Shown in pieces: positions 48,324-54,245 of a DNA stretch of 64,000 bases (its first letter is position 1; every line of letters starts with the position of its first letter). The notes under the pieces are model-generated. The model searched no databases. It had not been told where the DNA came from and saw nothing but the letters and a program-made list of their open reading frames with translations. A program made the translations under genes and the position numbers. This DNA is from Alphaproteobacteria bacterium (GTDB lineage: Bacteria > Pseudomonadota > Alphaproteobacteria > Sphingomonadales > Kordiimonadaceae), in assembly GCA_006226495.1 (NCBI GenBank), contig SBGU01000056.1, positions 62,001-126,000 on the forward strand, in the 5' to 3' direction.

Positions 48324-49466
48324 ATGCCGACGCCAGACACTGAAGTGCTGCTTGTGGATGACAGCCGCGCCGACCAGCGGTTCATCACCCGCGCACTTGG
48401 CTTGGCGCGCAGCAGTTTCCATGTCGATGCCGCCGGCTCCATGGCCGAAGCCCGGGCCAAACTTGAACAAAAAAAATACGATTGCCTTCTGGTGGATTAT
48501 AACCTGCCGGACGCCAATGGCCTTCAACTGGTTCGTGAATATTGCTGTGGCCGCGAGGCCGGCCAGATCGGCATGGTGCTGATCACCGGTGCCGGCAACG
48601 AAAAGCTGGCCGCCGAAGCCATCAAACTGGGTGCGCACGACTATCTGTCCAAGGACCAGATGAACGGGTCGGTGCTGGCGCGCGCGGTCGACAATGCCGT
48701 GCAAAAGTCCCGCATGCAGCGGAACCTGAGCCACCAGCAACTGATCATGGAACATTTTGCATCGTCAGCCGCACATGACCTGGCGAATCCGCTCAATGGC
48801 GTGATCGGCTTTATCACGCTCGCGCGCCAGCAACTGGGCGGCCTGATGGCCGACAAGGTGCCAGACTATCTGGACAGCGCCCTGGCGTCCGCCGAATATA
48901 TGCGCCACCTGGTCGAGGACCTGCTGCATTATGCCCGCACAGGCACCGCGTCGGAGGCGGCAACACCGGTTGACCTCTCGGATACCATGGACCTGGCCAC
49001 CAAGGTGCTTGAAAACACCATCCTGGATGCGGGCGCACGGCTTGAGGTCGGCGCCATGCCGGTGATCGAGGGGTATGCCACCGAACTGGTGCAACTGTTC
49101 CAGAACCTGATCGCCAATGCCATCAAATACCGATCCGACACGCGCCCGCGCATCCGCATCTGGGCCGAGGAACAGGAAAACCACTGGCAGATTGCGGTGG
49201 AAGACAATGGCATCGGCATCCCTTCGGAATCGGCTGAGGATATTTTTGCGCCCCTGCATCGGCTCAGGAAAAAGGAAGTCGCTGGCTTTGGTCTCGGCCT
49301 TGCCATCTGCGCCAAGATCACCGACCTGCACGGCGGTCGCATCTGGTGCGAACCCAGCGCCCTGACGGGCGGCAGCATCTTCAAGGTGACCCTGGCCAAA
49401 TCCCTGCAGACGCCCGATTTCGACCGCGGCAAAAGCAACGTCATATACGCCAGCAATTATATCTGA
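48324..49466 (+). CDS. Receiver domain-histidine kinase fusion
   Basis: 380-residue protein with a receiver domain first (acidic DD at 12-13, phospho-Asp58 in CLLVDYNLPDANG, Lys in YLSKDQ), then a histidine kinase: the H-box SAAHDLANPL with His151, the N-box QNLIANAIKYR and the G-boxes VEDNGIGI and GFGLGLAI. No sensor or transmembrane segment is present, so it takes phosphate or signal from another protein. This reverse hybrid order is typical of kinases acting in phosphorelays. Its partner is not evident nearby. Confidence 0.9.
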   Translation: MPTPDTEVLLVDDSRADQRFITRALGLARSSFHVDAAGSMAEARAKLEQKKYDCLLVDYNLPDANGLQLVREYCCGREAGQIGMVLITGAGNEKLAAEAIKLGAHDYLSKDQMNGSVLARAVDNAVQKSRMQRNLSHQQLIMEHFASSAAHDLANPLNGVIGFITLARQQLGGLMADKVPDYLDSALASAEYMRHLVEDLLHYARTGTASEAATPVDLSDTMDLATKVLENTILDAGARLEVGAMPVIEGYATELVQLFQNLIANAIKYRSDTRPRIRIWAEEQENHWQIAVEDNGIGIPSESAEDIFAPLHRLRKKEVAGFGLGLAICAKITDLHGGRIWCEPSALTGGSIFKVTLAKSLQTPDFDRGKSNVIYASNYI

Positions 49467-49861: not shown

Positions 49862-49964
49862 ACACGGCCAGCCCTGGCCACATCATGCACAGACCGCGAT
49901 ACCGGCAGCGCCAGCAGGCTGCAAGCCGGGCGCTTCCTATATATGCCCCTGAGGGATGAAGACG

Positions 49965-50420
49965 ATGAAAGCCCAATCTTCCATCCGGTCCGAGGACACC
50001 GTTGAAAGCCTCACCAAAAACCAGCGCCTTGTTTATGACGCCCTTCTTGATGCCGGCAGGGCCCTTGGCGCCTATGACCTTCTGGACCGGCTGCGACCCC
50101 GGGGGTTCGCAGTCGCGCCCTCGGTTTACCGTGCCTTGAACGAGCTGTCCGGCAAGGGGCTTGTCCGGCACCTGACCAGCGTCCGCGGTTTTGTCGCCCT
50201 GCACGCCGGCACGGCGCCGACAGCGTCGGCTTTCATGGTGTGCACGCGGTGCGGCACCGTTGACCAGATTGTGGCTGAAGGGCTGCAGATGGCCCTGGAA
50301 GATGGCCTTGTGGCGGCGGGCTTCAGCCCAACCGAGATGGTGCCGGAAATACCCGGCACCTGCCGGCACTGCCGCACCACAGAAGACGCAGGCGCGCCGT
50401 CCGTCAGTTCGGCACGATAG
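49965..50420 (+). CDS. Fur/Zur family metalloregulator
   Basis: 151-residue winged-helix regulator. The DNA-binding part is LTKNQRLVYDALLDAG through PSVYRALNELSGKGLV; the structural zinc site cysteines are in CTRCG and CRHC. The HHH cluster of Fur is missing, which with the CxxC pairs favours Zur. ATG 49965 is preferred, because GAGGG lies nine bases upstream; ATG 49956 is too close. The gene lies about 100 bases behind the DUF2946-like gene under a Zur-like box, suggesting zinc-dependent autoregulation. Its 3' end overlaps the convergent response regulator by 17 bases. Confidence 0.85.
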   Translation: MKAQSSIRSEDTVESLTKNQRLVYDALLDAGRALGAYDLLDRLRPRGFAVAPSVYRALNELSGKGLVRHLTSVRGFVALHAGTAPTASAFMVCTRCGTVDQIVAEGLQMALEDGLVAAGFSPTEMVPEIPGTCRHCRTTEDAGAPSVSSAR

Positions 50421-50838
50421 CGGTGTCGAACCAGAATTCGTTGAGGGTTTGCATGGCATCCACGAAGCCGGGCAGGTCCAGCGGCTTCTTGATATAGCTG
50501 TTGGCGCCAAGGCGGTAACATTCGCGCACGTCGCGTTCGTCGTCCGAAGTGCTGAGCACCACCACGGGGATGGCACGGAAATCGTCCGCCGACTTGATGG
50601 ACCGCAGCACTTCGCGCCCGTCCATGCCCGGCAGGTTGAGGTCCAGAAGGATGAGCGCCGGGCGTTCGGTACCGCCCGGGCGTTTGCACAGATGCAGGTA
50701 ATTGATGGCACGGCGCCCGTCGTCAACATGTTCGACCGGATTGTCCATGCCGGCCTTCTGGAAGGCGCGCTTGGTCACCCGCACATCGGCGGCACTGTCT
50801 TCGACCAACAGGATAAGCCGGTTGTCAATCTGGGTCAC
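50404..50838 (-). CDS. Rcp1-like response regulator of the ETR1-type kinase
   Basis: 144-residue receiver of the Rcp1 class (long insert YLHLCKRPGGTERPALILLDLNLPGMDG, phospho-Asp66, Lys in YIKKPLDL, C-terminal Trp-containing tail). Rcp1-type regulators partner phytochrome-like and other soluble-output kinases. The start overlaps the stop of the kinase gene by four bases, so the pair is coupled. There is no output domain; a downstream phosphotransfer or protein target is expected. Confidence 0.92.
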   Translation of the reverse strand: MTQIDNRLILLVEDSAADVRVTKRAFQKAGMDNPVEHVDDGRRAINYLHLCKRPGGTERPALILLDLNLPGMDGREVLRSIKSADDFRAIPVVVLSTSDDERDVRECYRLGANSYIKKPLDLPGFVDAMQTLNEFWFDTAIVPN

Positions 50839-52715
50839 AGGCCATTCTCCTTCGCGACTGTCATGGTGAAGCGGAACGTGGTTCCTTCACCCGGTTCGGA
50901 TTCGACCGTAATCTGGCCGCCATGCTGTTCGACGATGCGTTTCACGATCGCGAGGCCGGCACCGGTGCCGCCGCCATACTGGCTGCTGCCATGGAAGCGC
51001 CGGAACATCTCGAACACCCGTCCCTGGAAGTCGGGCTCGATGCCGATGCCATTGTCGGACACAGAGAATTCTACAAAGTCTCCGGTCCGCTTGCCAGCAA
51101 TTTCGACCCTCTTCTCCGCTGCTTCGTTATATTTGATGGCATTGGAGATCAGGTTCCTGAAGACCGTGGTCAGGTGAACCTGCGAGAATTTGGCGTCAGG
51201 TATGTCGGCGGCAATTTTAATGACCAGATGGTCGTCTTCCGCCCAGCCATGCATGTCTTCCGCCACCTGTTCGATCGCTTCGCGACAGTCGATCAGGTCA
51301 TGTTCCTTCTTGCGCCGGTCAATGCGACTATAGTCGCGCAAATCATCGATCAGCCGTTCCATGCGTTCGGTCAGGGTGGCGATGGTGCGCAGGTCTTCCT
51401 GATGTTCATCTTCCAGCCGCTCCATACAGTCCTCGATCACGATCGACGACAGGTTATGGATGCCGCGCAGGGGCTCCTTCAGGTCATGGGCGGCGATATA
51501 GACAAACTGGTCCAGGGCTTCGTTCGAACGCGCAAGTTTGACGTTAAGCTGCCGGAGCTCGTTTTCCTTGGCCTTGGTGTCGGTGATATCGCGGGCGATG
51601 ATGGCCGCCCCCACGGTTTGCCCCTGCGGGTTGCGAACCGGCGAGATGGACAGGGACACGTCCACCAGGCTGCCGTCCTTCCGGCAGTAGCGGGTCTCAT
51701 GATGGTTGACCGCCATGCCGCGCCGCACTTCCTGCAGGATATAGGGCATTTCTTCGGTTTCGCCATCGGGGATGATGATGGACATGGGCCAGGACACCGC
51801 TTCCTTGGCGCGGTAGCCCAGAAGCTTTTCTGCGCCCGGGTTCCAGCTCTGGATATAACCCTGCAGGTCGGTCGAAAAAATGGCATCGTCGCTTGATTCG
51901 ATAATCGCGGCCATGCGGCGCCGGTCAGCCGCCGTCCGCAGGCGTTCGCTGATGTCGACAATCGTGGCCAGCACCACAAGGTCCGGGTCGCCATGAACCG
52001 GGGTGAGGCCGATCTCCACCGGGAACAGGTCGCCGCTCAGTTTCTGGGCATACAGTTCCATGCCTTGCCCCATGGGGCGGGTCTGCATGTTGGCAAAAAA
52101 GTTGCGCCGGTGTTCGGGGTGCTTGGCCCGCACGCTTTCCGGCACCAGGGTTTCGATGGGCTGGCCGATCAATTCTTCGCGCTTTGCATCGAACAGGTCG
52201 GTGGCAGCGGGGTTCACAAGCCGGATATGGCCCTTGCGGTCGACACCGATGATCGCGGGGGAAATCTTGTTGATGACCAGTTCAAGCTGGGCGCTTTTAC
52301 GTTCCAGTTCCGCCGTGCGTTCAGCCACCTTTTCTTCAAGTTGCCGCTGGGACGGAATCGCCACCACAAGCGGGATCAGCCGCCAGGCCGCAATGGCGGT
52401 GATGACAGAAATGATGGCGGTGGCCACCTTGGCAAGGCCCGACAAGCCGTATGTGCCGTGCCACACCGTGACGATATTCATCACATGGGTGACACCGCAC
52501 AAAAAGATGAAGGCCGAAAACATATAGAAGATGGGCGAGAACTTGATGTCCTTGCGCTGCTTCAGCATGGCCAGCAGGCTGAGCGGGATGCTGAAATAGG
52601 CAAGCGCAATGGCGGCATCGGCGCCCACATGCATCCACAAAATCTCGGGCGCCCACAGGAAACAGTAACCGTGCGGCATGAAGTCCGTCGAAAACAGGCT
52701 GAGATCAAACAGCAC
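50835..52715 (-). CDS. Ethylene-receptor-like sensor histidine kinase (ETR1-type N-terminus, two PAS)
   Basis: 626-residue membrane kinase. Three N-terminal helices (about 22-52, 57-86, 92-118) match the ETR1 ethylene-binding domain: Asp33, Tyr40, Ile43, Pro44, Cys73 and His77 correspond to ETR1 Asp25, Tyr32, Ile35, Pro36, Cys65 and His69, all with the same offset of eight. Cys65 and His69 are the copper ligands in ETR1. Two PAS domains follow (about 142-255 and 265-380), then HisKA with His410 in IAAHDLKEPLRG and a HATPase (NLISNAIKYN, DNGIGI, GAGLAIVKRI). No GAF domain is present, unlike plant ETR1. It is predicted to sense ethylene or a similar ligand through Cu(I). It is coupled to an Rcp1-like regulator. 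Confidence 0.88.
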   Translation of the reverse strand: MLFDLSLFSTDFMPHGYCFLWAPEILWMHVGADAAIALAYFSIPLSLLAMLKQRKDIKFSPIFYMFSAFIFLCGVTHVMNIVTVWHGTYGLSGLAKVATAIISVITAIAAWRLIPLVVAIPSQRQLEEKVAERTAELERKSAQLELVINKISPAIIGVDRKGHIRLVNPAATDLFDAKREELIGQPIETLVPESVRAKHPEHRRNFFANMQTRPMGQGMELYAQKLSGDLFPVEIGLTPVHGDPDLVVLATIVDISERLRTAADRRRMAAIIESSDDAIFSTDLQGYIQSWNPGAEKLLGYRAKEAVSWPMSIIIPDGETEEMPYILQEVRRGMAVNHHETRYCRKDGSLVDVSLSISPVRNPQGQTVGAAIIARDITDTKAKENELRQLNVKLARSNEALDQFVYIAAHDLKEPLRGIHNLSSIVIEDCMERLEDEHQEDLRTIATLTERMERLIDDLRDYSRIDRRKKEHDLIDCREAIEQVAEDMHGWAEDDHLVIKIAADIPDAKFSQVHLTTVFRNLISNAIKYNEAAEKRVEIAGKRTGDFVEFSVSDNGIGIEPDFQGRVFEMFRRFHGSSQYGGGTGAGLAIVKRIVEQHGGQITVESEPGEGTTFRFTMTVAKENGL

Positions 52716-52886: not shown

Positions 52887-52946
52887 TGATCCGCGCTATT
52901 AGAGGTTTCGTACAGAACTGGTGGCAACAAGGATTTGGGGCAAAAA

Positions 52947-53825
52947 ATGACTTCTGACTGGAAACCGGCTTTCCTGATTGCGGGCCTTTTGGCCGCGGCA
53001 AGCCAGCCCGCAACCGCGGACGACCTGTTTGGCAGCGGCAAGCTTCTGGCCACGCCCGGTGTTATTCAAGCGGAAGGCGCAGGCGGCGCCGGCCTTGCCG
53101 CCTGGGCCACCATTTCGGGTTATGGCACCGACCGGGAAATCGGCGCCAATGCGCACTATACGCTTGTCGCCCTTGACGATTTCACCTTCCAGTCCGCGGG
53201 CGTGACTGTGGGCCTGTTCGACCGGGTGGAACTGTCGTTCGCCAAACAATGGTTCGACACCGGTTCTGCCGGTGGCCGGCTTGGCCTGGGCGATGGTTTC
53301 AATTTCAATCAGGACGTGGTGGGCGCCAAGGTGCGCCTGTTCGGCGACGCGGTTTATGACCAGGACACCTGGATGCCGCAGGTTGCTGCCGGCATCATGT
53401 ACAAGAAGGCCGACAAGGGCGATATCGTGCGCTATGTCGGTGCGAAGGATGATGACGGGGTCGATTTTTACGTCGCCGCCACCAAGATTTTGCTGAACGA
53501 AAGCCTGGTGCTGTCGGCTGGCGCGCGGCTGACCGAAGCCAACCATTTTGGCCTGGTCGGTTTTGGCGGCCCGAACGGCGACCACAGCCTGCAGTTCGAG
53601 GGCTCGGCCGTGTATCTGGTCGATGAAGGCTGGCTCATTGGCGCAGACTATCGCACCAAGCCGGACAATCTGGCCTTCGCCGAAGAAGGCAATGCCTGGG
53701 CGGCTTATGGTGTCTGGATGCCGAACAAGCATATTTCGGTCACCCTTGGTTATGCCGATCTGGGGCCGATTGCCCTTCAGGGCCGCCAGAATGGCCTTTA
53801 CCTGTCGCTGCAAACGGGGTTCTGA
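52947..53825 (+). CDS. DUF3034 family exported protein
   Basis: 292-residue exported protein with a signal peptide (about 1-24, to ATADD) and the DUF3034 pattern: GKLLATPGVIQAEGAGGAGLAAWATI, GYGTDREIGANAHYT, VGLFDRVELSFAKQ, then VRLFGDAVYDQDTWMPQVAAG. The beta-rich C-terminus ends with Phe (SLQTGF), consistent with an outer-membrane barrel. It precedes, by three bases, the truncated haemoglobin gene, a linkage I recall as common for this family. The function is unknown but redox or NO-related by context. Confidence 0.85.
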   Translation: MTSDWKPAFLIAGLLAAASQPATADDLFGSGKLLATPGVIQAEGAGGAGLAAWATISGYGTDREIGANAHYTLVALDDFTFQSAGVTVGLFDRVELSFAKQWFDTGSAGGRLGLGDGFNFNQDVVGAKVRLFGDAVYDQDTWMPQVAAGIMYKKADKGDIVRYVGAKDDDGVDFYVAATKILLNESLVLSAGARLTEANHFGLVGFGGPNGDHSLQFEGSAVYLVDEGWLIGADYRTKPDNLAFAEEGNAWAAYGVWMPNKHISVTLGYADLGPIALQGRQNGLYLSLQTGF

Positions 53826-53828
53826 ACC

Positions 53829-54245
53829 ATGAAAAAGTTTCTTCTGCCCGTCATCGCCTTTCTGATTGCCGCCCTGCCAGCGCACGCGGACGACAGCCTC
53901 TATCAGGCGCTGGGTGAAAAAGCCGGCATCCAGGCCATCGTGCAGCGCACCGCCGACCTGGCGTTTGTCGACCCGCGCACTGCGGAGCAGTTCAAGAACA
54001 GCAAAAAGGACCGGCTGGTGGGGCTGGTGACCGACCAGATTTGTGAACTGGCCGGCGGCCCCTGCACCTACAAGGGCCTGAACATGAAAAAGGCGCACAT
54101 CAAGCTGGGCATCACCCAGCATGAATTCAACGCCTTTGCCGAATGCCTGACCCAGGCCATGAACGAGGCCGGCGTGCCCTATCGCAGCCAGAACAAGCTG
54201 TTGGCGATCCTGGCCCCCATGGCGCGCGATACGATTGAAAGGTAG
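53829..54245 (+). CDS. Periplasmic group 1 truncated haemoglobin
   Basis: 138-residue globin with a clear signal peptide (about 1-20), so the protein is periplasmic, unusual for a globin. Proximal His90 is in MKKAHIKLGI, followed by ITQHEFNAFAECLTQAMNEAGVP, as in group 1 (GlbN-type). ALGEKAGIQAIVQRTADLAF begins the A/B helices. It could bind O2 or NO. It lies three bases downstream of the DUF3034 gene, which suggests a two-component periplasmic/outer-membrane system. Confidence 0.85.
   Translation: MKKFLLPVIAFLIAALPAHADDSLYQALGEKAGIQAIVQRTADLAFVDPRTAEQFKNSKKDRLVGLVTDQICELAGGPCTYKGLNMKKAHIKLGITQHEFNAFAECLTQAMNEAGVPYRSQNKLLAILAPMARDTIER

Follow-up and report, generated by a model that had tools for sequence, protein, structure and literature searches.

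Gene content of the locus

The sequence analysed here, which we call the window, is a 64,000-nucleotide stretch of a Kordiimonadaceae genome (contig SBGU01000056.1, positions 62,001 to 126,000). The interval under study within it consists of two minus-strand open reading frames, a kinase gene (52715-50835) and a regulator gene (50838-50404), which overlap by 4 bases (GTGA). The features of the locus are:

50835..52715, minus strand: histidine kinase of 626 aa, EBD-PAS-PAS-HisKA-HATPase_c, with a GTG start and GGGGAG ahead of it
52350..52715, minus strand: ethylene-binding (ETR1_N) domain (EBD), residues 1-122, three predicted transmembrane helices (PF25487, alignments, AlphaFold2)
51978..52277, minus strand: PAS 1, residues 147-246 (Pfam)
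51585..51917, minus strand: PAS 2, residues 267-377 (Pfam)
51315..51515, minus strand: HisKA, H-box HDLKEP with His410 (Pfam and motif)
50859..51182, minus strand: HATPase_c, with N-box (521), G1 (554) and G2 (581) (Pfam and motifs)
50404..50838, minus strand: Rcp1-type single-domain response regulator, 144 aa, GTG start, putative phospho-acceptor Asp66 in DLNLPG
52935..54245, plus strand: DUF3034 gene (52935-53825), then exported truncated globin gene (53829-54245), divergent from the kinase gene
48324..49466, plus strand: REC-HisKA-HATPase protein with an N-terminal receiver, which adjoins the receptor pair in K. gwangyangensis as well
49956..50420, plus strand: Fur-type regulator, best NCBIfam match Zur, below cut-off

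Both PAS domains, the HisKA and the HATPase_c exceed their Pfam cut-offs in the 626-aa kinase, and the H, N, G1 and G2 motifs of a two-component histidine kinase were all found. No GAF domain was matched by Pfam anywhere in this protein, in agreement with a sequence-only reading of the DNA that had described a PAS-PAS-HisKA-HATPase kinase lacking GAF. The nearest solved chains to the kinase core are bacteriophytochromes (E 1e-42). The regulator is a single receiver whose acceptor Asp lies in DLNLPG at position 66 and whose solved relatives are phytochrome regulators: 5te9 is nearest, RcpB is second, and RcpA and Rcp1 follow closely (5te9, 1k66, 1k68, 1jlk). These relatives, together with the 4-base gene overlap, bear out the coupled Rcp1-type regulator that the same reading had proposed. 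Judged by sequence, the two proteins are a predicted phytochrome-like output pair with the ethylene domain as its input. An orthologous pair is present in K. gwangyangensis. Among the best 80 of 511 related sites (see below), a receiver was found within the same polypeptide in 14 loci and directly downstream in 16, so the coupled regulator represents a recurring arrangement. A scan for promoters and terminators at the locus stayed at chance level.

The N-terminal domain and its binding residues

Residues 25-119 of the kinase match PF25487 (ETR1_N) with 118.7 bits against a cut-off of 27 (E 1.4e-34), and the 626-aa kinase carries the sole ETR1_N copy found on searching the window's genome. ETR1 residues D25, Y32, I35, P36, I62, C65 and H69 were reportedly identified by Wang et al. 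in 2006 as the seven needed for ethylene binding. In our alignment, made with a hand-entered ETR1 sequence, D33, Y40, I43, P44, C73 and H77 of the window protein correspond in exact +8 register to D25, Y32, I35, P36, C65 and H69, which upholds the six equivalences listed by the sequence-only reading. The seventh residue, Ile70 (ETR1 Ile62), was absent from that list; with it, all seven equivalents are kept. Past a loop three residues shorter, Lys96 aligns with ETR1 Lys91. Identity over the EBD is about 32% (36/112) to ETR1 and about 40% (51/127) to AzoEtr1 of Azospirillum brasilense, values that we counted against an ethylene-receptor function.

AlphaFold2, using 53 aligned sequences, produced three long helices (22-52, 59-85 and 88-118, numbered along the modelled fragment, whose first position is residue 2 of the protein) with a mean pLDDT of 94 and helix blocks of at least 93. 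The model thus predicts the three transmembrane helices that the family leads one to expect. Neither sequence nor fold search returned a solved structure of an ETR1_N domain.

How informative is the seven-residue match? A pattern scan gave 84 intact rows out of 88, a count that we did not use, since those residues are part of the scan patterns and bias it. We used instead a sample of 29 homologues drawn from the phylum by HMM. All seven residues are kept in 18 of these and vary in the rest, with the His lost in two and the Cys in one. Because only 18 of the 29 keep the full set, the match in the window protein is informative.

Several variants of the domain came to light. The ETR1_N kinase of another genome of the genus, G001 (locus L004), has Val and Ala where ETR1 has the Ile35/Pro36 pair, and keeps the Cys and His; it offers a natural variant for asking which binding residues matter. 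Two homologues from genomes of the same class (L146 and L147) keep the Cys and have Arg for His (DFTAVCR), and probably represent a non-ethylene branch of the ETR1_N family. On plasmid pMB03 of Acaryochloris sp. (L090, 4001-7416), the EBD match spans residues 6-93 only and is followed downstream by an IS1 transposase gene and then an ATP-binding protein, which suggests a receptor gene split by insertion.

Distribution and phylogeny

The sequence-only reading held that ethylene receptors are rarer outside plants and cyanobacteria. We found that the domain is not rare: ETR1_N exceeds its cut-off in 31 of 397 genomes of the phylum and 20 of 289 of the class. Within the genus it occurs in 4 of the 19 genomes searched (the window's own, G001, G007 and K. 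gwangyangensis, G010), a carriage that we counted against the ethylene-receptor interpretation. G010 agrees with Kordiimonas gwangyangensis in sequence and coordinates, which places the window in the genus Kordiimonas. Scanning named bacterial genomes gave 511 related sites, the best 80 of which come from Proteobacteria, Cyanobacteria, Acidobacteriota, Verrucomicrobiota and Bdellovibrionota, plus one MAG labelled Bacteroidetes. As to a phage origin, the domain had no match in the phage collection.

In a phylogenetic tree with plant, cyanobacterial and other bacterial homologues, a comparison suggested by the sequence-only reading, the EBDs of the window and K. gwangyangensis pair (100/99) and have marine Gammaproteobacteria as their neighbours (92/87). 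ETR1 has a long branch and is placed with the cyanobacteria (87/83). The remaining two EBDs of the genus, from G007 and G001, are placed elsewhere. Grouping the window, K. gwangyangensis and G007 as one clade was disfavoured (p 0.026, for a group picked after the tree was seen). The tree hints at horizontal gain from marine Gammaproteobacteria, but holding all six EBDs of the family as one clade was not rejected (p 0.07), and we therefore do not claim such a gain.

Gene neighbourhood

The receptor gene is divergent from the DUF3034 and truncated globin genes in three genomes: the window's, K. gwangyangensis (L009, 3540-4859) and G007 (L110, 6223-7530). The globin begins with a signal-like sequence. 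Because the G007 kinase is shorter and of different build, this arrangement may have arisen twice. DUF3034 occurs without an EBD in five other genomes of the genus, and outside the genus none was found near the EBD loci examined. Co-occurrence of the two families in the class sample is somewhat above expectation (3/10 vs 17/279, one-sided p 0.025); in two further class genomes with both, they lie far apart. Since no adjacency was seen outside the genus, we discarded the idea that ethylene receptors in general are partnered by DUF3034-globin. At this locus the operon is a candidate for control by the receptor, and we treat it as a lead.

The REC-HisKA-HATPase gene converges on the receptor pair only in the window and K. 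gwangyangensis (53% identity); a protein of 38% identity in G001 is encoded on a contig other than that of the EBD gene. We regard it as a lead too, as a candidate phosphorelay partner. The Fur-type gene lies on the opposite strand to the regulator gene, whose end it overlaps by 17 bases. The window's genome also encodes three P-type ATPases; as these are unsorted by metal, they are uninformative on copper supply.

Discussion

A putative ethylene receptor and its likely mechanism

Taken together, the evidence makes it very probable that the kinase-regulator pair forms a two-component system that senses ethylene in a Cu(I)-dependent manner, and the kinase a putative bacterial ethylene receptor. 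This reading is drawn from the PF25487 match, the seven residues and the three-helix model, and from the fact that AzoEtr1, with the same seven residues, binds ethylene (PMC11819568). It is also drawn from the bacteriophytochrome-like core and Rcp-like regulator, which are natural partners and recur as a pair in K. gwangyangensis.

Cys73 and His77, with Asp33, would hold Cu(I), and ethylene would bind there. Binding would change autophosphorylation at His410, most likely downward by analogy with ETR1, SynEtr1 and AzoEtr1; the discussion section of PMC11819568 mentions reports of lowered autophosphorylation in ETR1 and, on indirect evidence, in SynEtr1. Phosphate would pass from His410 to Asp66 of the regulator, and ethylene would lower the amount of regulator phosphate. 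Because the regulator is a lone receiver with no DNA-binding domain, output would run through protein contact or onward phosphotransfer.

Alternative inputs

In a bacterium that has no contact with plants, an ETR1-type copper site could instead serve a non-ethylene input: a redox signal, an alkene other than ethylene, or copper. To our knowledge Kordiimonas is marine and not plant-associated, and the gene next to the pair encodes a Fur-type regulator that matches Zur weakly. Both points favour such an input, but none of the other EBD loci examined has the Zur-like gene, and the seven ethylene-binding residues are fully kept here though other family members have lost some. On balance we consider a non-ethylene input unlikely. 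That the domain belongs to an unrelated helical family and resembles ETR1 by chance is so improbable that we set it aside: in the profile search, which the sequence-only reading had named as a possible source of contradiction, ETR1_N had no competitor over that stretch; the residues are in exact register; and the fold search gave no significant match to another fold.

A different possibility, compatible with ethylene reception, is a multi-input gas sensor that detects ethylene through the membrane domain and O2 or NO through a heme in PAS 1, and acts on the globin operon. Among solved structures, the sequence relatives of PAS 1 are mostly heme PAS domains such as DosP and FixL, as are all of the best six. 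His199 falls on DosP His77, the proximal heme-ligand position of DosP and FixL. By eye, the K. gwangyangensis orthologue keeps this His and has Arg at the FixL distal Arg position. The position of the exported truncated globin gene, near and divergent from the receptor gene in three genomes, also fits. However, the window protein has Met at the distal position, the E-values are only 1e-5 to 1e-9, and many PAS domains have this His without being known heme binders. Heme binding by PAS 1 is possible, and we think a multi-input sensor quite unlikely. More speculative, and very unlikely, is a receptor that combines copper-site ethylene sensing with PAS 1 heme gas sensing to control the divergent DUF3034/globin operon. 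Ethylene would then act not as a plant hormone but as a broad signal that algae or organic matter altered by sunlight are present in the sea.

Significance

The ethylene-receptor reading stands as our preferred one, and bacterial receptors of this kind are already known and tested. A 2025 study found that AzoEtr1, from the alphaproteobacterium Azospirillum brasilense, binds 14C-ethylene saturably and influences physiology (PMC11819568). Earlier work had already pointed to wide occurrence of homologues in bacteria, proteobacteria among them (PMC6682694, PMC7700396). The sequence-only reading, which called non-cyanobacterial ethylene signalling plausible, was right in direction and understated the case; given AzoEtr1 binding and the wide spread of homologues, its framing as a novelty is out of date. 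The window kinase adds one more member to a kind already known. No paper that connects Kordiimonas with an ethylene receptor came up in our literature search. What is new, as leads, is a Kordiimonas member whose EBD groups with marine Gammaproteobacteria, with a bacteriophytochrome-like core, a His at the heme-ligand position of PAS 1, and DUF3034-globin neighbours.

On present sequence evidence, Kordiimonas would join the bacteria that have ethylene receptors, and its binding site is intact and its kinase-regulator pair simple. Because cultured K. gwangyangensis has the pair as well, it makes a good system for studying ethylene's role in bacteria that live away from plants. The value is mainly ecological: likely marine sources of ethylene would be sunlight acting on dissolved organic matter, given that photochemical ethylene production in natural waters has been discussed (PMC6682694), and algae.

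Comparison with known systems

AzoEtr1 and its regulator AzoRR-etr1 are alike in having an alphaproteobacterial EBD with the seven residues, which it shares as those required for ethylene binding (PMC11819568), a PAS-kinase and an adjacent stand-alone receiver; on the A. brasilense plasmid the gene is a 525-aa ORF followed by the receiver ORF. Like the window kinase, AzoEtr1 has no GAF in its published domain layout (PMC11819568), so GAF is not a defining feature of bacterial members. It differs in having one PAS domain where the window kinase has two, in its soil and root habitat, and in having no DUF3034-globin neighbour within the stretch examined. The cyanobacterial SynEtr1 and GeiEtr1/2 (PMC6682694) share an EBD with the binding residues and a two-component kinase, but carry a GAF, which the window kinase lacks; SynEtr1 is also a photoreceptor (PMC6682694). 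In the tree, cyanobacterial EBDs group with ETR1, apart from the window EBD. According to a passage in PMC11819568, AzoEtr1 and SynEtr1 both alter biofilm formation, in opposite directions. Arabidopsis ETR1 has the seven residues in register and the Lys91 equivalent in common with the window protein, which in contrast lacks GAF, has PAS domains and possesses a bacteriophytochrome-like kinase core. Bacteriophytochrome kinases with Rcp1-type regulators (8avv, 8uph, 1k66) match in kinase core and type of regulator; their input is a bilin-binding module, whereas here a membrane ethylene domain takes its place.
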